Made by a program: the position numbers and the translations under genes. Below the pieces are notes generated by a model. That model was not told the DNA's origin. It worked only from the letters and a program-made list of their open reading frames with translations, and ran no database searches. This document shows positions 25,897 through 37,599 of a stretch of DNA of 37,599 nt, one piece after another. Source of the stretch: Dehalococcoides mccartyi (GTDB taxonomy: Bacteria; Chloroflexota; Dehalococcoidia; GIF9; DYGU01); assembly GCA_020724525.1 (NCBI GenBank), contig DYGU01000014.1:1-37599 (forward strand), read 5' to 3'. Numbering within the stretch: position 1 is the stretch's first letter; each line of letters begins with the position of its first letter.

Positions 25897-26647
25897 TTAG
25901 CATGGGGAAGTAAGATATTGAGTTAGCTGCTCAAATCTTTTCCCATCTGTCCCTAAGACGAGTTCCTTAAAGTAAGCGTTAATTTTTTCCCGCTCCTTGA
26001 CTTGCTTAACTATGATGTCTTTGAAAAGATAGGGAAAAATGTTATGATAGCTTCCCATAAAGAGAACCCCCGTTTCTCCCTCCTTTAGAGTTTCATTAAT
26101 CGTCTTGGCTACGAATTTATCCCTTGCCTTCGTTAACTCGCCTTTACGGAGTTTATATTTGGCATAGGCGATGGTTTTCTTAGCCGCTGATTTAGACTGA
26201 AGAAGCTCAACAATATGTTTATATTCCTCTTCAAGGAGAGAGGGGGTCTTCAGTCTTTCTTATCTCAGCGCCTTTTTGCATCAGGTTAAGTATAAGTTGA
26301 AGGTTTTTGCTTCCACGCCTTGCCCCCTCTTCAATGGTTTTTCTACCGAGTTCACCATCTGCCGGGAGCCCATCCTGATATATTTTCAAGTTGGAAGCAT
26401 CAATGGTAGCGAAATAGTCAGCTATGCTTTCCCAGAATTTAGCTACCGTCTCTTTGTGTTTAGCCCACCTCTCCTCGCCGCACAAAGAGGAGCTTTTACT
26501 GTCAATAGCAGAAGCAACGCTTCCAAGGTCAGATTCTGTGTGGATGATGGGAACATAAAGGAGTTTCCTCATTTTTACCTTTGCGACCACCGGCGTAATT
26601 TGTATTTCTTCTGCATTATCATAAGTCTTTTCTTCTCGATCACCCAT
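25897..26647 (-). pseudogene. Conserved hypothetical protein, frameshifted
   Basis: ATG 26647 begins MGDREEKTYDNAEEI, then KLLYVPIIHTESDLGSVASA, ERWAKHKETVAKFWESI, IYQDGLPADGELGRKTIEEG and KNLQLILNLMQKGAEI. One base is out of place near 26235-26245 (CTCTCCTTGAAG); the other frame continues LLEEEYKHIVELLQSKSAAK and GVLFMGSYHNIFPYLFKDI to the stop at 25897-25899. About 250 residues in total. I recall similar proteins in archaea and Chloroflexi but no function. It follows the Ntn hydrolase remnant by 6 bp, so the two belonged to one operon with CDC48. Confidence 0.6.
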
Positions 26648-26653
26648 TTCCTA

Positions 26654-27325
26654 TTAAGAAAGCTGGAGCTCTGCAATCTCGTTGCCAAGTCTTGGAATTG
26701 CCTCTCGTGAGGAGTAAATTTGCCTGAGTCTTTCGATTGTTTGTTCCCTAATTGCATGGACCCCTCCTTCATCGATTAACCACGCATCTGTTGCCTTACC
26801 CACTTGCCCGGCTGTTTCTGCCGTTTCCAGGGCAGAAGAAGCCTATAGAATCATAGCTTTCATAAGTGCCTGGGTTACGAATGTAATAGAAGTGTGCCTT
26901 GCTATCTACTCCGGCGAGAAGAATATGCACACCTAAGTCGTATTGTTCGATTTGTGAGTTAAGGTCTATCACTAAAGCATCATGCTGTAATTTTTGCCTA
27001 TTGTAGTATTCTTCAAGTGAATCAAATCCCCTTGCTTTCAAAACCTGGTCTCTTATCCTGCTAAGCCTGATTTCATGATATTTCTGCGTAAGTGCTCTGG
27101 CTACGCTTAAAATGGGGGGCTTGGAAATAGTGGATAAATCGCTTCTAACTTGGTCAATTAGTTCAGGCTCATGCATAGTTCCCGCAGTAAGAACCATAGA
27201 GTTTTCTGCTATTTTTTCTCCTTTAGGGTCGCGCTCGAATGTTAAGCCTGCTCGTGACACCAGCCTATCTGAGACGAGGATCACTTTTTTGCCAGCTTCG
27301 CATATCGCTCTATTAGTTGCGTCAC
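26654..27325 (-). pseudogene. Proteasome-like Ntn hydrolase, internally deleted
   Basis: GTG 27325 follows AGGAGGT with an 8-base spacing, but the recognisable frame (AICEAGKKVILVSDRLVSRA) is reached only after a shift in the first few codons. It continues with ENSMVLTAGTMHEPELIDQV and DLGVHILLAGVDSKAHFYYI, the pattern of 20S-proteasome-superfamily proteins, up to YDSIGFFCPGNG. There the expected gRHAE...AK segment is missing and the rest, AETAGQVGKATDAWLIDEGG, follows in another frame to TAA 26654. The N-terminal nucleophile is not identifiable. It lies 36 bp downstream of a CDC48-type unfoldase. Confidence 0.6.
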
Positions 27326-27361
27326 GGAATTTGACCTCCTTTATTAGCTCATAACATTATA

Positions 27362-29500
27362 CTATGTCAGCGTTGATTTCCCTATCGTCTCCAATGCCTC
27401 ACTGAAATGCCGGGCATTAATCTTGAATTTGGTAAAGTCCTTCTCCTCTTGATTTATAAACTCCCTTATCGCCAGCATAGAGGCCCTCCTCGAGATAGCC
27501 TCTATATCTGAGCCAACCAGACCTTCTGTTGCCTCAGCCAGAGACTCAAGGTTGACATCGTCAGCCAGGGGCTTGCCTCTGACGTGGACTTTGAATATCT
27601 CAAGCCTCGTTTTCTTATCAGGAATAGGCAGTTCAAGCTGGAGGTCAAATCTGCCGGCTCTAAGTAGGGCAGGGTCGATAATATCTGGTCTATTGGTAGC
27701 GGCGAGAACCACCACCCCCTTGAGCTCTTCTATCCCATCCAGTTCAGTTAGAAACTGGCTGATGACTCGCTCAGTAACATGGGAATCGGCACTTGCCCCT
27801 CGGACAGGGGCAATGGCATCTATTTCGTCAAAAAAGATAATACAGGGGCTGGCTTGTTTTGCTTTCTTAAAGACCTCTCTAATGCCCCTTTCAGACTCGC
27901 CGACCCATTTGGAAAGAAGAGCTGGACCTTTGACTGAGATGAAGTTCACCTCACTCTGGCTGGCTACTGCCTTCGCCAGAAGAGTCTTGCCCGTGCCAGG
28001 GGGACCGGTGAGCAGAATGCCCTTGGCAGGTTTGGTATTGGCATGTTCAAACAGTTCTGGATACTTAAGTGGCCACTCAATAGTCTCCATAAGCACCCTT
28101 TTAGCTTCCTCAAGCCCGCCGACATCGCTCCACTTAACATCGGGGATCTCGGTGAAAACCTCCCTTATAGCTGAAGGCTCCACCTCCTTTAAAGCTTCCA
28201 GGAAATCATTCATGGTGACTTCTAATTGTAAAAGCAGCTCATAAGGAATATAGTCGGCTTTAAACTCAATCTTGGGCATGATTTTTCTTAAGGTCACCAT
28301 CGCCGCCTCTCGGCAGAGCGCTTCAAGGTCTGCTCCAACAAACCCATGGGTAATGTCGGCAATTCTTTCCAGGTCTACATCAGAAGATAAGGGCATGCCT
28401 CTGGTATGGATGTGAAGTATCTCCAGCCTTCCATTTCTGTCGGGGATCCTTATGGAGATCTCGCGGTCAAATCTCCCCGGCCTCCTCAAAGCCGGATCGA
28501 GGACATTGGGTATATTAGTGGCACCGATAACAATTACCTGTCCTCTTGATTTCAAGCCGTCCATTAAAGCCAGGAGTTGAGCGACAACCCTTCGTTCTAC
28601 CTGCTGATCACCTCTGACTTCCTCTCTCTTGGAAGCTATAGCGTCAATTTCGTCCATAAAGACTATAGCCGGGGCCTGTTCATTTGCTCTTTCAAAGATA
28701 GCCCTTAAATGTGCTTCGCTCTCACCGTAAAATTTATGGATAACCTCCGGACCAGTTATATGGAAAAAGTTGGCATCGGTTTCATTAGCCACGGCTCTGG
28801 CTATCAAGGTTTTCCCACACCCCGGTGGACCGTGCAAGAGCACGCCTTTTGGGGCCTCTATCCCCAGCCGCTCAAAGACTTCAGGATACTTCAGAGGGAG
28901 CTCGATCATCTCCCTTATCCTTTGAATCTCCTTATGTAGCCCCCCAATATCTTCGTAGGTAACCCCGGTTCTTTCTTTTTCTCCAACCCTCTCCCCTTTT
29001 ATCTTTATGTTGGTAATGGGATGGATGATGACCACTCCCCTGGGACTGGTATCAACTATAGAGAATTCCTGATACCGGGTGCCAAATAGAGTAGCTCTTA
29101 CTTTATCTCCGGGAGTCACCGCCAATCCCTCGAGTAACCTCCCAATATATCTGGTATCCCTTTCCTTTAGGGCTGCTTGAGCAGTTATAGGAGCCAAGAT
29201 TACTGTGTTGGCAGCCTTATAGTCCACTTTCTGGGTCTGTGCCTTTTCGCCCAGACCTATCTGGGCATTTTCACGGGTAATACCATCTATCTGGATAATT
29301 TCTTTGCCCCGGTCCTCGGCGTAAGCTGGCATAACTTTAGCTACCGTGGCTCTTTTGCCTGTAATCTGGACGATGTCCCCCACCATGGCTCCAATCTTCG
29401 CCATATCTTTAGGGTCGATCCTGGCTATTCCCCTGCCGACATCCTTGGCCAGCGCCTCTGATACCCTTAGGGTCAAAGTTTTGGTCTCCGTTTGTGCCAT
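27362..29500 (-). CDS. CDC48/VAT-type double AAA ATPase
   Basis: The 712-residue protein has the CDC48 N-domain (double-psi barrel, about residues 5-175), D1 with Walker A GPPGCGKT (224-231) and Walker B VFMDEIDA (280-287), and D2 with GPPGTGKT (499-506) and IFFDEIDA (555-562). The arginine-finger region [13 protein letters not shown] is present in D1. It should be a hexameric unfoldase/segregase. The C-terminus (GKSTLT) lacks the HbYX motif used to dock on 20S proteasomes. It starts 3 bp after the HTH-GvpH stop and is probably co-transcribed from 30245-30273. Uncommon in bacteria outside some anaerobes; close association with gvp-like genes suggests it remodels the vesicle-type proteins. Confidence 0.95.
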
Positions 29501-29503
29501 TTT

Positions 29504-30223
29504 TTACTTCTTTTTCATGAGCTTTATCTCGAGGATTCCATTCCTGTAGGAGGATTCCATAGTATTGATGTCGACCGGGTAGGGCAGTAGGACCTCTTTG
29601 CTGTATTTTCTATCCTTTGCCTCGGCCATTAGCTCCAGGATATCCTCCTTTGCCTCCAGATGAATATCATCCTCTTCGACACCAGGAAGTTCGGCAATTA
29701 CTACCAGCTGATCACCTTCATCGAGCACATCGACTAACGGTTCACGGACCTCAGCCACCACTGTGCCCTCCTCCGTTGCCCGAATGTTGCCGAACTGCTC
29801 GATAACCGGCTTTCCTCCCAGTCCCATCTTTATGCTGAAACCATATACCCCTTTAAGCTTGTCGCCTAAACCTTTAATCTCACCGGTTCGGGTATATTCC
29901 TCTTTCCTCTCCTCAGTCATTTTGGAGATGAGGTCAAAGAGACTACCAATCCCTTTAAATAACCCGCCAAGACTGAACTCAACTGGCTCTCCAGGCCTCT
30001 TTCGTCTTTCACTCATCGGAACACCTCCTTTTTTTCGTTGAGCTTTACTTACTTGGTTCTGTAGTTCCTCCAGCTTAAGGCTAATAATGGGCAAAGGCTT
30101 GGTGAGGCCGGCTTCCCAGCGCCTCACCGTCTGAAGCGAGACGCCGAGGAGCCGGGCAAACCTCTCCTGTGATAGCCCAAACTCAAGCCGGAGGTTCTTG
30201 ATATCCTTGTCCTCCATAGACAT
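29504..30223 (-). CDS. gvpH: HTH-GvpH (Hsp20) fusion with internal GvpH start
   Basis: The 239-residue frame starts with a Cro/CI-type helix-turn-helix (LRLEFGLSQERFARLLGVSL, about residues 11-45), a linker, and from Met70 (base 30016) a complete GvpH-like protein: SLGGLFKGIGSLFDLI, GVYGFSIKMGLGG, EPLVDVLDEGDQLVVIAELP and a C-terminal NGILEIKLMKKK alpha-crystallin fold. AAGGAGGT stands 6 bases before Met70, so a second, free 170-residue GvpH can be made. Seven consecutive As just before it could allow slippage that ends the HTH frame shortly after. The HTH may regulate the consensus promoter at 30245-30273. Confidence 0.9.
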   Translation of the reverse strand: MSMEDKDIKNLRLEFGLSQERFARLLGVSLQTVRRWEAGLTKPLPIISLKLEELQNQVSKAQRKKGGVPMSERRKRPGEPVEFSLGGLFKGIGSLFDLISKMTEERKEEYTRTGEIKGLGDKLKGVYGFSIKMGLGGKPVIEQFGNIRATEEGTVVAEVREPLVDVLDEGDQLVVIAELPGVEEDDIHLEAKEDILELMAEAKDRKYSKEVLLPYPVDINTMESSYRNGILEIKLMKKK

Positions 30224-30244
30224 TTATCCCCCAACCTTTTCCTT

Positions 30245-30273
30245 ATTATAACACATGTTTAGTCATATGTCAA
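30245..30273 (-). promoter_or_regulatory. Consensus promoter of the HTH-GvpH/CDC48 unit
   Basis: On the minus strand TTGACA (30273-30268), a 17-bp spacer and TATAAT (30250-30245) match both consensus hexamers. The spacer and flanks contain two similar words, ACATATG and ACATGTG, about 12 bp apart, a candidate operator for the HTH protein whose ATG is at 30223. It divides the minus-strand cluster into at least two transcription units. Confidence 0.85.
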
Positions 30274-30289
30274 TACTTTTTGAGCGCGA

Positions 30290-30397
30290 GAGTGCTTATT
30301 TTGTCACTCTCACCTACCCTCTCCCTTGAAGGGAGAGGGTAGGTGAGAGTTTCTCTGCTTTGTTTAGGATTGTGGATAAGCATTGGTAAACAACCTC
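30290..30397 (-). repeat. MITE-like repeat, family 1 copy E (full hairpin)
   Basis: The best-preserved copy. From GAGTGCTTATTTTGTCA to GGTAAACAACCTC, with a perfect 21-bp stem CTCTCACCTACCCTCTCCCTT facing its reverse complement across one base. It is inverted relative to copies A and B. It sits between the GRAM-Hsp20 gene and the promoter at 30245-30273, so it may terminate the upstream unit or have carried in that promoter. The remaining 30398-30514 holds no further feature that I can recognise. Confidence 0.9.
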
Positions 30398-30514
30398 TTG
30401 AGCGGAAATTTTGGATTGTCAGGGGCTGTGCTTGTGACGAGGAGGGGCGGCTACTTTAGCGAGCGAAAATAGGGCTGTGTTTATTAGCCGGCAACTAACA
30501 ATGGGATAATCTCC

Positions 30515-31468
30515 TCAGAGTAGGTCACTGGGAAGCTTCTCCAGCCTAATTACTAAAACGTGGTTGCTATAGGATCTCGTGCATCTGTTAGGATTGACTT
30601 CAGCGGGAAGGGCAACTTCTTCGCAATAGCTCTTGTCCGGGCGGTTAACAGAGATGGTAAGCATATCCTTCGTTACGTTGATGCTGATATCCTCCTCGGC
30701 TACACCCACAATTTCGGTAACGACCTGTATATGGTCCCCCTCATCGAAGATATCCAGGAGTGGCTCTTTCTCCTTTTGCCTAACCTCCGCAGGGACAACC
30801 AGCCACCAGCTGAACAAAACCTTCTTGCCCGTGTCGGGGTCGAGCTTTGACCTCTCAAATAACAGGAGGGGATTACCAGTTATCTTTTTGGCAACAGGGT
30901 TTATAGTGTCCCTTATTTTAAGGAGAACGTGCATGTGATTGGGAGCTGATACTAAATCGGCGAGTTTGCTGATGGTGGCATAGCGATTTTCCCAAAGATA
31001 AGTCACAATCTCCCTGCTAACAGAGTCGAGCTCTTCCATCACCCTATTCAGGGATTCTTCGCTGACTCTGAGCGATGCCCTCTCAAAAAGCTCTTTTCTC
31101 CAGAGTTCCAAGTCAGGCATGATAATCCAGGCTTTTGATTGTCTTTGAGTTATTGGGCTCTGGTATTTCATAGCAATAGTGTCCTTTATCTTGCCAGCAA
31201 TATATTTTTGTTGTTCCACCCTAATCTCCCTTACGTTACTCAGAGGCGTTTCAAATATGATCCTTGAGGGAACGAAAAAGAGTAGCCTGTGGTTGGTAAG
31301 ATAGAAACGGCCAAGCTTCCAGATTGAACGCATATTATCTTTATAGCCACCTTGCGAGTGGAGGATAACTTGCTCATCACTGGCTAAGCCTGGGTCGATG
31401 GCTCGTCTAATTCCCCCTGACAGCTCTCTGGTGCCCTCATACCTGCTTTTGATACTCCCCAGTCCCAT
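30515..31468 (-). CDS. GRAM-winged helix-Hsp20 fusion protein
   Basis: This 317-residue protein joins three parts. Residues about 30-130 are a GRAM/PH-like domain (WKLGRFYLTNHRLLFF, IIFETPLSNVREIRVE). Residues about 150-225 look like a winged helix (SREIVTYLWENRYATISKLA). Residues 235-312 are an Hsp20/GvpH-type alpha-crystallin domain (PLLDIFDEGDHIQVVTEIVG, LPAEVNPNRC, NHVLVIRLEK). The first part matches the GRAM domains of the GvpA-type fusion at 33419, so the two likely contact the same lipid or partner. No signal peptide. I know no characterised protein with this domain order. It lies 53 bp downstream of dnaK. Confidence 0.78.
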   Translation of the reverse strand: MGLGSIKSRYEGTRELSGGIRRAIDPGLASDEQVILHSQGGYKDNMRSIWKLGRFYLTNHRLLFFVPSRIIFETPLSNVREIRVEQQKYIAGKIKDTIAMKYQSPITQRQSKAWIIMPDLELWRKELFERASLRVSEESLNRVMEELDSVSREIVTYLWENRYATISKLADLVSAPNHMHVLLKIRDTINPVAKKITGNPLLLFERSKLDPDTGKKVLFSWWLVVPAEVRQKEKEPLLDIFDEGDHIQVVTEIVGVAEEDISINVTKDMLTISVNRPDKSYCEEVALPAEVNPNRCTRSYSNHVLVIRLEKLPSDLL

Positions 31469-31521
31469 ACTCTTTTCCCTTAAATAAAGGACATTTCTTA
31501 TCCGGTATTTCCTAAATCTGA

Positions 31522-33386
31522 TTAAGCCGACCTATCCTGAGTCCTATCCAACCCCTTCGCCATCTCTCGTTTCTTATCTTTTGTTTCGCGGTAAAGGGCT
31601 TTGACTGCCTTTTCCAGTCCTTCCGTCGTCGCTTTGATCTGCTGGCTATTTCCATTAGCCAGAGCAGTTTGTACCCCCAGTATTTTTATCTCGACATCGT
31701 CGACTAAGAATGAATCCACATTTAAGTCGACTTCTTCAATAGTCTGCCGGGCAGCCCGAACCATATTATCGGCCTTGATTCCTATCTCGACCTCTTCCCG
31801 CGATTTCTTGTCCGACTCGGCATACTTTTGGGCTTCCTCGAGCATACGGCTGATTTCCTCTCTGGACAGCCCATAAAAACGGGGGCTAATCCTCAGTTTC
31901 TGCAAGTTGTCTGTATACAAGTCCCGAGCCGATACACGGAGAATACCGTCGGCGTTGATATCGAAGGTTACCTCAACTCGAGCTTCCCCACGAGGTAGGG
32001 GAGGGATACCGGTCAATTCAAATTTATCCAAAGTCATATTATACATAGCCATTTCTCGCTCACCCTGCAAGACATGGATATCCATGGAAGTTTGATTATC
32101 GGTGGCATTGGTGAAGATCTGACCCTGCGAGACAGGGATTGTGGTATTGCGCCCGATGATCTTGGTGAATATCCCGCCCTGGGTCTCAACGCCGAGAGAT
32201 AGGGGAGTAACATCTATTAATATATTAATACCTTTCCCTCTATTTCCCCGGTTAGAATGCCGGCTTGGATAGCTGCCCCCATAGCCACCACTTCATCAGG
32301 GTGGATATCCTTATAAGTCTCCTTGCCCATAAGTTGCTGGACAAGCTCCCTTACCGCGGGCATTCTGGTGGCTCCACCCACCAGGATCACCCGGTCAATA
32401 TCCTCAGGTTCCAGTCCGGCATCAGCCAGCGCCTGTTTAGTGGGGCCGACCATCTTCTGAAGTAGATCTTCAGTCAGCTCTATAAACTTTGCCCTGGTTA
32501 GAGTTGTTTCCCAGTGCTCAGGGGTCTCCCCACCGGCATCGATAAAGGATATCCTGATACGGGTAATCTCTCGATCCGTTAGTTCGAGCTTAGCCTTCTC
32601 AGCGACCTCCTTGAGCTGTTGTAAAGCTATCTTGTTTTCTCGCAGGTCGATGCCATATTCTTGCTGGAACTTGTCAGCCAGGTGGTCCACTACCCTTTGG
32701 TCATAATCATCTCCGCCAAGCCAGGTATTGCCATTTACTGCTTTAACTTCAAAGACCCCCTCCCCAAGCTCCAGAATAGAAACATCAAAGGTGCCGCCAC
32801 CGAGGTCCCAGACCAGGATAGTGTGGATGTCCTCCAGGTCAAGTCCGTAAGCAAGGGCGGCAGCGGTAGGTTCATCAACGATTCGCATCACTTCCAGACC
32901 GGCAATGGTACCAGCATCTATAGTAGCCTGACGCTGGCTTATGTTGAAATAGGCAGGGACGCTGATCACTACTTTCTCAATTTTCTCGCCGAGGTAATTT
33001 TCAGCGTCTGTTTTGACCTTTTGCAAAATCATGGCTGATATTTCCTCAGGGGTGTATTCTCTGTCTTCAAACCTAACCCAATAATCGGAGCCCATGCGCC
33101 TTTTGATTTGCCGGATAACCTCCCGGTCATTGCTGAGATTATCAAGGTCAAGGTAAGCTCTCCGCCCCATACGTCTTTTTATGGAGAACACAGTTCCATC
33201 CGGGTTGGCGATAGCTTGGAGTTTAGCCAGTTGCCCTACCAGTCGCTTTCCGTCTTTTAGGAAAGCGACGACTGATGGTGTGAGCCGACCGCCTTCGGCG
33301 TTAGGTATGATTATCGGTCGGCCCCTTTCCAGATAAGCGACCACTGAAAAAGTAGTCCCAAGGTCAATACCCACTACCTTTGACAT
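31522..33386 (-). pseudogene. dnaK: DnaK (Hsp70) chaperone with one-base frameshift
   Basis: ATG 33386, preceded by GGAGGGG, starts [20 protein letters not shown]. The ATPase domain is complete ([50 protein letters not shown]). At about 32220-32230 one A is missing (GTATTAATATATTAATAGATG); adding it restores [18 protein letters not shown], and the substrate-binding part continues to 31522 with GEREMA and LPRGEARVEVTFDINADGIL. About 621 residues, a little shorter than housekeeping DnaK. The loss is in an A/T run and may be a sequencing error, in which case this is a working operon-dedicated Hsp70. An in-frame upstream start (33488) is rejected. Confidence 0.88.
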
Positions 33387-33418
33387 TGAATTTCGCCCCT
33401 CCACCAAACTCCCCGTTA

Positions 33419-34504
33419 TCAGCCTGAGATTGCCGCCTGGCGTATTTCCTTTTTCAGCCTCGGGCTTACCCAGCCACACCTGGCGCACCCCTTCTCCAGA
33501 AGCTCCCTAACCGGGGCCTCTTGACCACACTGAGGGCAGGTGTCTATCTCCTTAGTTGAAGCAATGCCTGGCTGTGAGGCGACTCGATTAAGTGTCTTTT
33601 CCCATTGCCATAATTCATCCCCAGAAAAGGAAGCTACCTGTTTCCCAAAGTCATTTTGATATATGACGTCAAGGACATTCCTTTGGGTGAGCACAGTACT
33701 GAGGTTTCTCCGTTCCACGGTGGAGGCGACAATCTTGTCTAAGGGCACTTCAAAGACCACTTTTTGTTCAAAATCATACCACCACAATAATCTTTTGTTG
33801 GTGATGTAAAGGTGGCCAGGCTGCCAACTTTCGCCTAAGATTCCGCGGGTTTTCATTAAATGCCACATTTTCCCTCGGCAAGTGATCTCCTCGCCATCGG
33901 TGAGGAAACTGGCTGCCCTTTTGTCCTGTCTTAGAAGAATCGGCATTTCCTGCCAGGCAATTCCCAACTTAGACATTTCTTTTTCCACAGCTTGTCTCAG
34001 TTCATGAATGTCTACAGCGTGCAGCCGGGCAATATTACCCCCCTTGAGCAAGAGACAGAGGTTTTCTCGCTCTTCTCTCTCTATTGCCAATCCTTTTATC
34101 TTTTTCAAAGGTGTCTCAAAGAGCACTTCTTCAAAGCTTGGGTGATATAGAATTAGTCTTTTGTCGGTCAAATAGATACGTCCCAGCCTCCAGGCGGTGT
34201 ATATCCCTTGGCTATAGTGATAAGAGCCAAACATCTCGAGGATGATTTCCTCCCCCAAGGTGGCTGAAAGCTGTTTCTGCTTTCTGTGTTCTTGCTCCCA
34301 GGCGCGGGTGCGCTCGTCCCATTCCGTCATCACGCCATACCTTAGCATGGTCTCCATTCCGGCCAAGGCGGCTCTCAGGTTAACCCCGATCAAGGGGATG
34401 CCAGCAACGGAAATAATGATATCTGCGTAAAGGACTAAACCTTTGTCCAGCACCCTGTCCAGCAGGTCAACCAGGGTAGCGTGTGAATTTCGTGTCGGCT
34501 CCAT
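33419..34504 (-). CDS. GvpA/J/M domain fused to two GRAM domains and a zinc ribbon
   Basis: This 361-residue protein begins with a complete gas-vesicle structural-type domain (about residues 9-58: [20 protein letters not shown] and [20 protein letters not shown]), closest in pattern to GvpJ/M minor proteins of the GvpA superfamily. Two GRAM/PH-like domains follow: about 83-175 ([38 protein letters not shown]) and about 202-300 ([34 protein letters not shown]). The end is a zinc ribbon with Cys323/326/340/343 (CPQCG, CARCGW). Gas-vesicle shell proteins are normally about 70-150 residues, so this fusion is unusual. GvpF/L, GvpK and GvpH are encoded just upstream. Confidence 0.82.
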
Positions 34505-34530
34505 TTTCCCTCACTTCGCTCAGTAAATCC

Positions 34531-34953
34531 TAATGACAAATTGAAAAACTGAAACTTATTGATTTATCTTTGTTTTTCCGATAATAGAACTCAGTATTTT
34601 CATTAACTCTTTGCTTTCGTTTAATAACCACTTTAATTCTTCATTATCATCCTGTTTCTTTAATAAATTAGATAAATCAATTACCTTAAGCCAATAATTA
34701 GACTCTCTTGCTTCTTTTCTAGCAATTCTATCTTATTAACAAAATCTTTCTTAGAAACTGCTCCATCTGCCTCTTCCATATTCGCACCTATCGAAGTACC
34801 AGCTCGAAGAAGTTGCTTTCCTATTTCATAGCCAGCAATAGTCTTAGGTAACCTGTCTATAAAACTTACAATCTTAACAGCAAATCTAAGACATCTTTTA
34901 ATGTCATAAATTTTTTCATTCATTGACCATTTGTCATTTTTAATTTGTCATTA
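34531..34953. mobile_element. Inverted-repeat-bounded insert carrying a four-helix-bundle gene
   Basis: Perfect 12-bp inverted repeats TAATGACAAATT (34531-34542) and AATTTGTCATTA (34942-34953) bracket the gene at 34556-34923. The right repeat overlaps the TAA stop of the GvpF/L gene (34951-34953). A second ATTTGTCATT lies at 34929-34938. The insert separates GvpF/L from the GvpA-GRAM gene in an otherwise tight operon. Confidence 0.6.
34556..34923 (-). pseudogene. Four-helix bundle protein (S23/IVP-like), frameshifted
   Basis: ATG 34923 begins MNEKIYDIKRCLRFAVKIVS, then IGKQLLRAGTSIGANMEEAD, the signature of the S23 ribosomal intervening-sequence/four-helix bundle family. Near 34705-34725 the frame slips: the family ending ARKEARESNYWLKVI and a lysine-rich tail lie one frame over, closing at 34556-34558. 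Codon use is markedly more A/T-rich than in its neighbours, suggesting recent arrival. Confidence 0.75.
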
Positions 34954-35766
34954 AGTGAAACTGTATGGCGGCCAGGGACCGGTGAAGCGAACCGAGAATC
35001 CCTCCATTTTATTGATTTCGTCCAGTTCTTCGCCTAACTCCCTGTATTTATCTACATAGACTAAGCAGGATAGGTTCATGAGCATCTGTAAGTCCTGGTC
35101 CGCCTTTTTTGTCTTTTCCACACGAATGTCGTCAACGTGTTTCTTTATCCTGCTGTAAAAGTCCTTAAAGCACTCATCCGCCTTAAATTCCATCTCCTTC
35201 TTCAGGAGGTTCTCCAGCCTTTGCCGGTACATGTAGGCTAATCCCTTCGACTTAGACCTGATTTCCGCCTCTAACCTCTTGATTTCAGGACTGCTTTCGG
35301 TGAGGTGTTGGGCGATGATTTTTGGATCCCAGAAGACCTGGACGCCATATTCTGCCTTATCTCTTACCTTTTCTATTTTCTTCTTAAGGTTCTCATAGTC
35401 CTCTTTTAGCCAGTTAAGCGTATTCTCCTCAGCGCTCCTTGCTTCTGCTCTAATTATGGTATCAAAGCCGAAGGGGAGGACAGTGCCCCACTTCTCCCAG
35501 GCAGTATCAATCACCTTCTGATGCCTCAATACCCATGCCTTCACTACCTCTTGGTCATCTGACTTATATGGTTCGGCGGGGCAACTATGGACCACGGCAC
35601 AAATATCCCTGTAAGCAATAGTGTAGACTTCGCTGTTTTCTATCCCAATTTCCCCGAGGCTTATGCTTTCCTCGGCATCAGCAACACAATAAAGGTAAAT
35701 GCCTTTTTCTTTGGCATTCGTTTCAGCTTCACTCAATTGAATTTCTTCAGTTCCTCCTCCTGCCAT
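34951..35766 (-). CDS. gvpF/L: Gas vesicle protein GvpF/GvpL family
   Basis: The 271-residue protein has the family start KGIYLYCVADAEESISL, then AYRDICAVVHSCPAEPY, HQKVIDTAWEKWGTVLPFGF and the C-terminal hallmark SVRFTGPWPPYSF. GvpF/L proteins are minor vesicle components or assembly factors that bind GvpA. The ATG at 35766 overlaps the gvpK end by 34 bp; a later TTG (about 35737) could instead be used because homology starts only near residue 20. It is complete. Confidence 0.93.
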   Translation of the reverse strand: MAGGGTEEIQLSEAETNAKEKGIYLYCVADAEESISLGEIGIENSEVYTIAYRDICAVVHSCPAEPYKSDDQEVVKAWVLRHQKVIDTAWEKWGTVLPFGFDTIIRAEARSAEENTLNWLKEDYENLKKKIEKVRDKAEYGVQVFWDPKIIAQHLTESSPEIKRLEAEIRSKSKGLAYMYRQRLENLLKKEMEFKADECFKDFYSRIKKHVDDIRVEKTKKADQDLQMLMNLSCLVYVDKYRELGEELDEINKMEGFSVRFTGPWPPYSFT

Positions 35767-36056
35767 CTTTCGGGATTTACCATCCTGTCAAGGACATCGT
35801 CGACTATATCATCCAGACCATCCTTGACCGATTTTACAGATTCACTAATTCCCTGCTCTTTCTTTATTTCTTCGATGGCGAGGTCAAGGTCCATAAGTGC
35901 TTGCCCCAGCCTTTCTATCTTCTCTTCAGTCAAGCTTCCACCCTCCACTCTTCTTATTGCCTGGAGTTTGAGGGCGTCCCTTATTATTTCAACAAGGGCC
36001 ACAACCAGCCCGAGTAGACCATGTTTCAGACTTTTCTCATCAATATCAACCACCAT
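35733..36056 (-). CDS. gvpK: Gas vesicle protein GvpK
   Basis: The 107-residue protein shows the GvpK pattern: HGLLGLVVALVEIIRDALKL (about residues 12-31), QAIRRVEGGSLTEEKIERLG and LGQALMDLDLAIEEIKKEQG. GvpK is a small accessory protein in essentially all gas vesicle clusters. It is 12 bp downstream of the GvpH-like gene and overlaps gvpF/L, so the three are translationally linked. Confidence 0.93.
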   Translation of the reverse strand: MVVDIDEKSLKHGLLGLVVALVEIIRDALKLQAIRRVEGGSLTEEKIERLGQALMDLDLAIEEIKKEQGISESVKSVKDGLDDIVDDVLDRMVNPERWQEEELKKFN

Positions 36057-36068
36057 TTCTCTTTCTCT

Positions 36069-36641
36069 TTAGCTACCGGACTTCTTGCGCAGTCGAATTT
36101 CTAAGATACCATTGTGGCAAGTTGCCCTTAAACTCTCCTTGTCTACTTCAGTGCGTAGCTTGATCACCTTTCCATAGTTCCGTTGAGCGGTAGGTTTTGT
36201 TAATAACTGAAGGACATCGCCTTCGATTTTCAGCTTCAGGTCTTCCATGTCCACACCAGGAACCTCAGCTACGATTATGATTTCTCCCGCCTCGTCGAAA
36301 ATATCAACAGGCGGTTTGACGGCCTCAGGAGGTTTGGGAATTCTTTCTACCCTTTTCTGTGGTCTTGGTCGTGAAACTGTTCCAATATGGTATTCAGCAT
36401 CACCCAGAATGCCACGAGTGTGAAAGTGCCCGCCGATACTTATACCCCCCCTCCGCCACTCCTCATCACTCAAAACTTCCTTCCCGCCGGCTTGTTTTAG
36501 CTTCTCCCTCAGTTCCTCAAGCCGATCTTTTACATCCTCAGGTGAGGAAAGAAGCTTGGCCAGGTCTATCTTGAGGCCGAAGATATTCAGTGTCCCCCCA
36601 AGCACATCGGAGATATCAAACTCTTTGTCTTCTTTTTTCAT
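36069..36641 (-). CDS. Hsp20/GvpH-like protein
   Basis: The 190-residue protein has a leucine-rich helical N-terminus (SDVLGGTLNIFGLKIDLAKL), a linker with GGISIGGHFHTRG, and an Hsp20 domain from about residue 110 (PVDIFDEAGEIIIVAEVPGV, VLQLLTKPTA, CHNGILEIRLRKKSG). The VDIFDE..E..VVAEVPGV block is shared with GvpH at 29504 and the Hsp20 part at 30515, making three alpha-crystallin proteins in one cluster. GvpH-type proteins stabilise or limit vesicle formation in haloarchaea; here the client is unknown. Confidence 0.85.
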   Translation of the reverse strand: MKKEDKEFDISDVLGGTLNIFGLKIDLAKLLSSPEDVKDRLEELREKLKQAGGKEVLSDEEWRRGGISIGGHFHTRGILGDAEYHIGTVSRPRPQKRVERIPKPPEAVKPPVDIFDEAGEIIIVAEVPGVDMEDLKLKIEGDVLQLLTKPTAQRNYGKVIKLRTEVDKESLRATCHNGILEIRLRKKSGS

Positions 36642-36665
36642 CGGGCTCTCCTTGACTTATTACAC

Positions 36666-37067
36666 TCATGCCTCTTTTTTGGAGATCACGCCTGCGCCCT
36701 TACAGCGTAAACAGTGGAGATAAATTCCATTAATGCGCTTGGTGCCTGTGCCGAAGCAAGCCGGGCATGTCTCCGTTGGCTCTCCTACGGTTATCACCCC
36801 TGTGCCGTAGCAGGCAAGACAGGTCAGCCTGGTGAAAGGCTGGACCCCTGTCTGGTCACAGGCACGGCAGGGGACATAAGGCTCTATTACCCGGACTTTA
36901 CCTTTACCGCCACAGACGCAGCAATTAGAAAGGTGAGACATGATTCCGAAAGGGTCTTTGCCGGTGCCCTCACAAAAGGCACATTTCACCTCCGCCCGCT
37001 TTACCTCGACCTCAATCTTTGGCATTACCCGCCGTGGTCGCAGTTTTGCTCTTACTTTTTGTGTCAT
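36666..37067 (-). CDS. DnaJ-type zinc-finger protein without J domain (copy 2)
   Basis: The 133-residue protein consists almost wholly of CxxCxGxG-type knuckles (CAFCEGTG, CCVCGGKG, CRACDQTG, CLACYGTG, CPACFGTG, CLRCKGAG). They form a DnaJ-like cysteine-rich module, but no HPD J domain is present. ATG 37067 follows AAGGAGGT. Its paralogue precedes it at 37167. Likely a client-binding or disulfide/zinc chaperone partner for the DnaK encoded downstream; this is inference. Confidence 0.87.
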   Translation of the reverse strand: MTQKVRAKLRPRRVMPKIEVEVKRAEVKCAFCEGTGKDPFGIMSHLSNCCVCGGKGKVRVIEPYVPCRACDQTGVQPFTRLTCLACYGTGVITVGEPTETCPACFGTGTKRINGIYLHCLRCKGAGVISKKEA

Positions 37068-37166
37068 CTTTTACCTCCTTGGAAATTGTTTTGTTAGTTC
37101 AGTAACAATTTCCATTTTTGTCCTCGGAAGAGGGTATAGTAAAATTGCCCATCTGGCAAATAGCTA

Positions 37167-37538
37167 TCAGGCACGCACCACACCTTTGCCCGAGCAGATA
37201 GCGCAGGGAAGCCCGAACTCATCCGTCAGAGTTCTACCTGAACCCTGACAGGCAGGACAGGTCTTTGTCTCACCAGGCACGCTGACTACGCCCTTCCCGG
37301 AGCAAACAGAGCAGGTAAGGCGACGGGGGAAGCCGCGGCGATCACGATGGATGCCTTCGCTGCTACAGTAACCACACTGGACATAGGGCTCCCTGACCCG
37401 AATGGTTCCCCTTCCACCACAGGCAGGACACTTGCCGAAGCCGATTACGGGATCGGCACCTGTCCCCTCGCAGAGGCCACACTCAAGTACTGCATACCCC
37501 TCTTCCTTTCTTAGCACCTTTATCTCTCTCTGTTCCAT
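37167..37538 (-). CDS. DnaJ-type zinc-finger protein without J domain (copy 1)
   Basis: The 123-residue protein read from ATG 37538 (after GGGAGGG) has the knuckles CGLCEGTG, CPACGGRG, CGYCSSEG, CSVCSGKG, CPACQGSG and CAICSGKG. A longer in-frame start at 37583 lies inside the inverted repeat and is not used. It is paralogous to 36666-37067, but the two are distinct in sequence. First gene of the minus-strand cluster in the window; its leader is the right arm of the 47-bp inverted repeat. The 99 bp between the two genes shows no further feature. Confidence 0.87.
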   Translation of the reverse strand: MEQREIKVLRKEEGYAVLECGLCEGTGADPVIGFGKCPACGGRGTIRVREPYVQCGYCSSEGIHRDRRGFPRRLTCSVCSGKGVVSVPGETKTCPACQGSGRTLTDEFGLPCAICSGKGVVRA

Positions 37539-37546
37539 TTTGCCAC

Positions 37547-37593
37547 CCTCCCATGAGCGCACAGTTTTGTCAAGCCTGCGCACCCTTTTTATT
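37547..37593 (-). repeat. Right arm of 47-bp perfect inverted repeat (gene leader)
   Basis: Reverse complement of bases 1-47. On the minus strand it gives TTGACA (37573-37568) and ends at the ribosome site of the DnaJ-type gene at 37538. Identity stops exactly after GGGAGG, so the two inward-facing genes share a leader but not a coding sequence. Confidence 0.9.
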
Positions 37594-37599
37594 TTTTAC

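Follow-up and report, generated by a model that had tools for sequence, protein, structure and literature searches.

A single gene in the window, by which we mean the whole analysed stretch of 37,599 nucleotides from Dehalococcoides mccartyi, probably encodes two proteins on one mRNA, namely an autoregulatory fusion of a helix-turn-helix (HTH) domain with a small heat shock protein (sHsp) and the same sHsp in free form, at the head of an sHsp-Cdc48 operon. Comparison with relatives establishes, at the level of sequence, that the fusion and its frame are shared, that the HTH part is under selection, that the internal Shine-Dalgarno (SD) sequence and start are kept, and that a dyad in the promoter is kept together with the HTH. 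The sequence-only reading of this region, which had proposed a DNA-binding chaperone sensor and a free chaperone from one message, is right in outline, though the run of A residues to which it drew attention is irrelevant and the sensing of client load would be a further, putative step.

A frame scan of the window showed an open frame of 239 codons without a stop at 29504-30223 (-), giving a protein of 239 residues, or of 237 if translation starts at Met3 (30217). A profile search placed an HTH_3 domain of the XRE/Cro-C1 type at residues 8-53 (30065-30202, -; E = 4e-11, 43.1 bits against a gathering threshold of 23), which is also present in the fold model and is followed by a helix to about residue 63. 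The alpha-crystallin domain occupies residues 157-239 (29507-29755, -), as seen by profile, fold model and structure match, and the predicted domain superposes on that of Hsp20.1 from S. solfataricus (4rzk) with an rmsd of 0.8 and 43% identity. The AlphaFold model of the whole fusion has a mean pLDDT of 64.9, with the linker at residues 63-93 below 50, and is thus to be read at the level of domains and is silent on oligomers. The in-frame passage from an HTH domain into GvpH described earlier was therefore borne out by a frame without a stop and by HTH_3 and then HSP20/GvpH matches along it. The label GvpH itself held in part: Pfam PF05455 covers residues 150-237 at 24.3 bits, narrowly above its cut-off of 22, in a partial match to positions 86-167 of a profile of 177, whereas the archaeal Hsp20 family NF041800 is the best curated family for the second half (residues 87-239, 162.9 bits against a cut-off of 140), and the HSP20 profile, matching residues 169-239, scores above GvpH there. 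The second half of the fusion is an Hsp20/GvpH-type sHsp, for which GvpH is a loose name.

We then compared 45 GvpH-type loci, gathered by one contig scan and by searches of 198, 393 and 400 genomes, which overlap. These comprise 12 intact fusions from 12 genomes, the window's included, 32 loci without an HTH, and one locus (L027) counted in neither group. Dropped before counting were L066 (4e-22, with only query residues 157-237 matched), L034, L035, and paralogous matches to the alpha-crystallin domain alone or to the HTH alone; the contig scan contributed three loci without an HTH part, of which only L033 was used. The in-frame fusion is thus present in 12 of the 45 loci, each with an HTH_3 match at E of 0.1 or better. 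No stop interrupts the joint in any of them; a stop between HTH and GvpH in all relatives had been named as the finding that would overturn the reading. The other 11 fusions share 55-80% identity with the window protein; the most similar of them, at 80% (genome G445), belongs to another class. Linkers vary in length by whole codons only. When the 32 HTH-less loci were scanned with an HMM of the fused HTH, none had an HTH in another frame upstream, L040 with just 74 nt of upstream sequence being silent on this point. Standalone relatives of the HTH (L023, 70 residues; L030, 68 residues) had no adjoining sHsp gene and, by eye, no copy of the dyad, and viral contigs gave a single weak match, to the HTH only.

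The HTH half is under strong purifying selection, as judged from codon comparisons. Across the 46-codon HTH core of the fused loci, mean identity falls from 0.72 and 0.85 at the first and second codon positions to 0.42 at the third, which is the least identical in 65 of 66 pairs; 18 columns are invariant among fused homologues, and the nearest pair has a dN of 0.078 and a dS of 0.64 (dN/dS of about 0.1). A tree built from the sHsp portion unites all 12 fusions with L027 and with L014, which lacks the HTH, in one clade (support 94/97). The HTH label takes three changes on this tree, with L027 labelled HTH-less, and as few were reached in none of 500 shuffles. The tree, in which L014 is loosely placed, is consistent with a single gain of an HTH that was later lost or decayed in L014 and L027. 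The fused loci probably have a common origin, so their agreement at 12 of 12 does not amount to 12 independent events. L027 (G106:C73) is a second copy of the fusion beside an intact one in the same genome and gives the sole match to an HTH in another frame; its sHsp part is interrupted by a frameshift near query residue 86, its promoter site is degenerate and its CDC48 gene is reduced to a fragment, so that this copy is probably decayed. L014 has neither HTH nor operator, which shows that the cluster can dispense with the switch.

The earlier description of a strong ribosome-binding site with ideal spacing before Met70 was confirmed. The internal SD, AAGGAGGT, lies at 30023-30030 (-), where both the letters and the predicted pairing with the anti-SD identify it, and 7 nt separate its GGAGG from the ATG at 30016-30014; the host carries the anti-SD, since the 16S rRNA of the same genome ends in ACCTCCTTT. 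The free sHsp predicted from this start would be 170 residues long (29504-30016, -). The methionine at the joint is kept in all 12 fusions, preceded by GGAGG in eight, AGGAG in two and weaker purine runs in two (L038 and L013), so that a conserved internal ribosome-binding site and start codon, the marks of a gene within a gene, are found across the 12. This methionine lies 18-24 residues ahead of the FKG motif, and the starts of HTH-less relatives lie mostly 15-35 residues ahead of it. Because the positions match, the internal start looks like the native sHsp start, retained when an HTH was added in front of it.

The upstream start is less uniform. Ten of the 12 fusions have a methionine in the column of Met3, which makes Met3 (30217) the probable true start. 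Pairing of the anti-SD at the upstream start is -7.7 or stronger in seven fusions and weaker than -3 in five. If transcription begins 7 nt past the -10 box, three of these five (L036, L037 and L011) would have a leader of just 0-2 nt; their mRNAs would open at, or almost at, the HTH start codon, a leaderless arrangement unlike the SD-led internal start. Such upstream starts would favour production of more free sHsp than fusion.

If only the full-length fusion were made, the internal SD and methionine would be a by-product of a linker rich in Lys and Gly, whose codons yield purine runs. Indeed, resampling of synonymous codons already gives an average pairing of about -8 at the joint, and 7.8% of 798 internal in-frame ATGs in 105 neighbouring ORFs (mean -3.1) reach -7.4. 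We nevertheless hold this explanation unlikely. Pairing at the joint averages -11.0 kcal/mol over the 12 fusions, the weakest being -7.4, against a mean of -3.0 at the other in-frame ATGs of the same genes (n = 38). It beats the synonymous null (p < 0.05) in six loci and is not significant in the other six, among them L013, where it is weaker than the null (p = 0.69); the Fisher combined p over the 12 loci, which assumes independence, is 5e-6. Moreover, a methionine with a purine run recurs at one spot in every fusion despite variation in the length and sequence of the linker, and that spot is where HTH-less relatives start. The converse, in which free sHsp is the sole product and the HTH region is just leader sequence, decayed or untranslated, might draw on the five upstream starts that lack an SD and the three with almost no leader, yet it is very improbable in view of the purifying selection on the HTH and its invariant columns, and of the strong SD at seven upstream starts; leaderless starts also work in many bacteria. 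The sequence-only reading had further pointed to a run of seven As at the joint. The run is present (30029-30035, -) and is confined to the window's joint, the longest A run in the other 11 fusions being six (L008) and four or fewer in nine; its lack of conservation speaks against a role. An assembly slip within this run, by which two separate genes for HTH and sHsp would appear fused, was suggested by its position at the joint and is refuted by the 11 other genomes, which are in frame without an A7; we leave it next to no probability. Slippage on the run might instead yield a third product, a free HTH: by eye, an in-frame A_AAA_AAA is accompanied by a stop that overlaps the internal start, the -1 frame meeting a TGA at 30011-30009, right after Met70. 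Most other fusions have no comparable A run, and we give slippage very little credence.

The proposal of a consensus promoter just upstream also stands. TTGACA, 17 nt and TATAAT with a TG extension lie at 30245-30273 (-), matching the consensus at 12 of 12 bases, and this was the only such match among 20 promoter-like sites in 26000-37599. TTGACA is exact in all 12 fused loci, 33-66 nt before a reference point near the start codon, and a GTA immediately upstream of the promoter is kept in 11. Between the -35 and -10 boxes, and overlapping both, is an operator-like dyad, ACATATG-N6-CATGTGT (30251-30270, -), identified by conservation and a scan of the own genome. The pattern ACANNTG-N6-CANNTGT with a TTGACA-17-TATAAT-like promoter occurs in 12 of 12 fused loci and in none of the 32 HTH-less loci, of which L040 has too little upstream sequence to be scored. 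This distribution links the HTH, putatively, to the promoter, as the earlier reading had supposed, and a predicted palindromic site upstream of the regulator's own gene is what an autoregulator of the HSR1 kind would have. In a leave-one-out analysis, the combined promoter and dyad score was 20.1-43.2 in the fused loci, and the best HTH-less locus scored 2.5. A perfect 22-bp inverted repeat (30306-30350) lies between the promoter and the upstream PH-Hsp20 gene.

Since three outer pairs of the dyad fall on TTGACA and the TG-extended -10 box, only the four inner pairs are informative. These were complementary in 29 of 48 cases against 15.8 +/- 3.2 in shuffles (p = 1.5e-4), with two pairs strong (10/12 and 8/12) and two weak (5/12 and 6/12) when taken singly, and the dyad axis scored highest among 676 axes and gaps tried. 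The site might be bound by another regulator, or simply be a strong extended promoter, with the HTH acting elsewhere; the sharing of the outer pairs with the promoter boxes would allow this, and binding by the HTH is itself predicted. We assign that explanation a rather small probability, because conservation extends to the inner CA and TG bases, which are not part of the boxes, and because the module, present wherever the HTH is intact, is absent in L014 and degenerate in the frameshifted L027. The own genome holds a single exact match to the site pattern, and other matches in the window and 12 longer stretches score 15.3 or less, which is more in keeping with a dedicated autoregulator than with a regulon.

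The gene for a CDC48-family AAA ATPase (27362-29500, -; TIGR01243, 985 bits) has its start codon 3 nt past the stop of the fusion. It comes directly after the fusion in all 12 fused loci and follows the sHsp gene in 20 of 32 HTH-less loci, some of whose stretches end early; the sHsp-Cdc48 pair thus appears to be the common core, and the HTH an addition. Presumably cdc48 is also part of the HSR1-hsp20 operon of Archaeoglobus fulgidus. A small protein without an NCBIfam match (26231-26647, -) lies downstream of CDC48, as it does in eight of the 11 other intact fused loci. The cluster around the fusion includes gvpK, gvpF/L and a gvpA-type gene. Between the latter two sits a four-helix-bundle protein (TIGR02436, 34681-34923, -), which we take to be of the 23S rRNA intervening-sequence type. 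Two reading frames of the cluster have unusual joins, one with a PH-like stretch before Hsp20 (30515-31468, -) and one with a GvpA-type N-terminus before PH/GRAM-like stretches (33419-34504, -). A frameshift near 32215 breaks the window's copy of DnaK (31522-33488, -) in two. Of the four relatives that we checked, L068, L072 and L075 have a fully open frame, and L071 shows a single stop in the frame that was scanned. The contig ends (1-47 and 37547-37593) share 47 bp as inverted copies, which probably mark a boundary of the assembly or of a repeat.

These observations suggest the following sequence of events. An HTH module would have been gained in frame just upstream of the native sHsp start, with the ribosome site retained. 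From the present mRNA, the full-length HTH-sHsp would be translated from Met1 or Met3, and the free 170-residue sHsp from Met70 by means of its own strong SD. The full-length form, dimerised through its chaperone half, would bind the dyad in the spacer of its own promoter and repress transcription; the sHsp half could supply the dimer that two half-sites require. According to a review (PMC9133787), the sHsps of archaea function both as dimers and in larger oligomers, and sHsp hetero-oligomers are known, so the fusion and free sHsp could mix and may form mixed oligomers. Repression would be relieved once clients occupy the sHsp part. Gas-vesicle proteins are plausible clients, since the GvpH of Halobacterium is described as preventing aggregation of GvpM (PMC9501494). 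As the transcript would run on into Cdc48, the loop would set the level of the sHsp-Cdc48 pair in the gas-vesicle and chaperone cluster. A possible, though doubtful, extension is that the gene acts as a one-gene thermostat, in which the repressor would gauge unfolded or gas-vesicle clients through its own chaperone half and free sHsp from the internal start would co-assemble with it, the ratio of free to client-bound forms directly setting transcription of the operon with no separate sensor.

Known systems offer partial parallels. HSR1 of Archaeoglobus fulgidus is autoregulatory and binds the palindrome CTAAC-N5-GTTAG upstream of its own gene, repression being relieved on heat (PMC9133787); as predicted here, a DNA-binding regulator stands with and upstream of hsp20, with a palindrome before its own gene. 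However, HSR1 and its sHsp are separate genes, whereas here one frame has an internal start, and the candidate site, ACANNTG-N6-CANNTGT, lies in a promoter of sigma-70 type in a gas-vesicle cluster. The Rpn toxin-antitoxin system (PMC10327210) and SAerR/LAerR (PMC9144470) likewise use internal starts to make nested proteins from one frame, and the short and long forms can differ or oppose each other in regulation; unlike those systems as described, the protein here joins an HTH to a chaperone, and the N-terminal part alone would bind DNA. In the overlaps of C proteins with endonucleases, a small autoregulator similarly lies just upstream of an independently translated effector, but the overlapping genes are separate and C.PvuII activates its own promoter, where we see an in-frame fusion (PMC2997769). 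Haloarchaeal GvpH, of the same Pfam family by the narrow margin given above, is an accessory gas-vesicle protein; the account drawn on here mentions no HTH and attributes regulation to GvpD and GvpE (PMC9501494). An Hsp20 gene has been noted before in bacterial gas-vesicle clusters (PMC2963123).

Our searches of open-licence literature turned up no HTH-Hsp20 fusion, which does not exclude one in print. Chaperones that feed back on their own genes usually do so by way of a separate repressor, such as HrcA or HspR, which the chaperone helps or frees. New here is the promoter-dyad module that is common to all 12 fusions and absent from the 32 HTH-less loci. Taken together, the comparative evidence points to a conserved, directly testable one-gene circuit. 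If the predictions drawn from it hold, a repressor covalently carrying a chaperone, with a second start for the free chaperone, would constitute a minimal circuit that titrates itself, and the two starts of a single frame would, unusually, set the doses of both regulator and effector. This suggests a way in which an HTH module may be added before an effector without loss of the effector's own translation.
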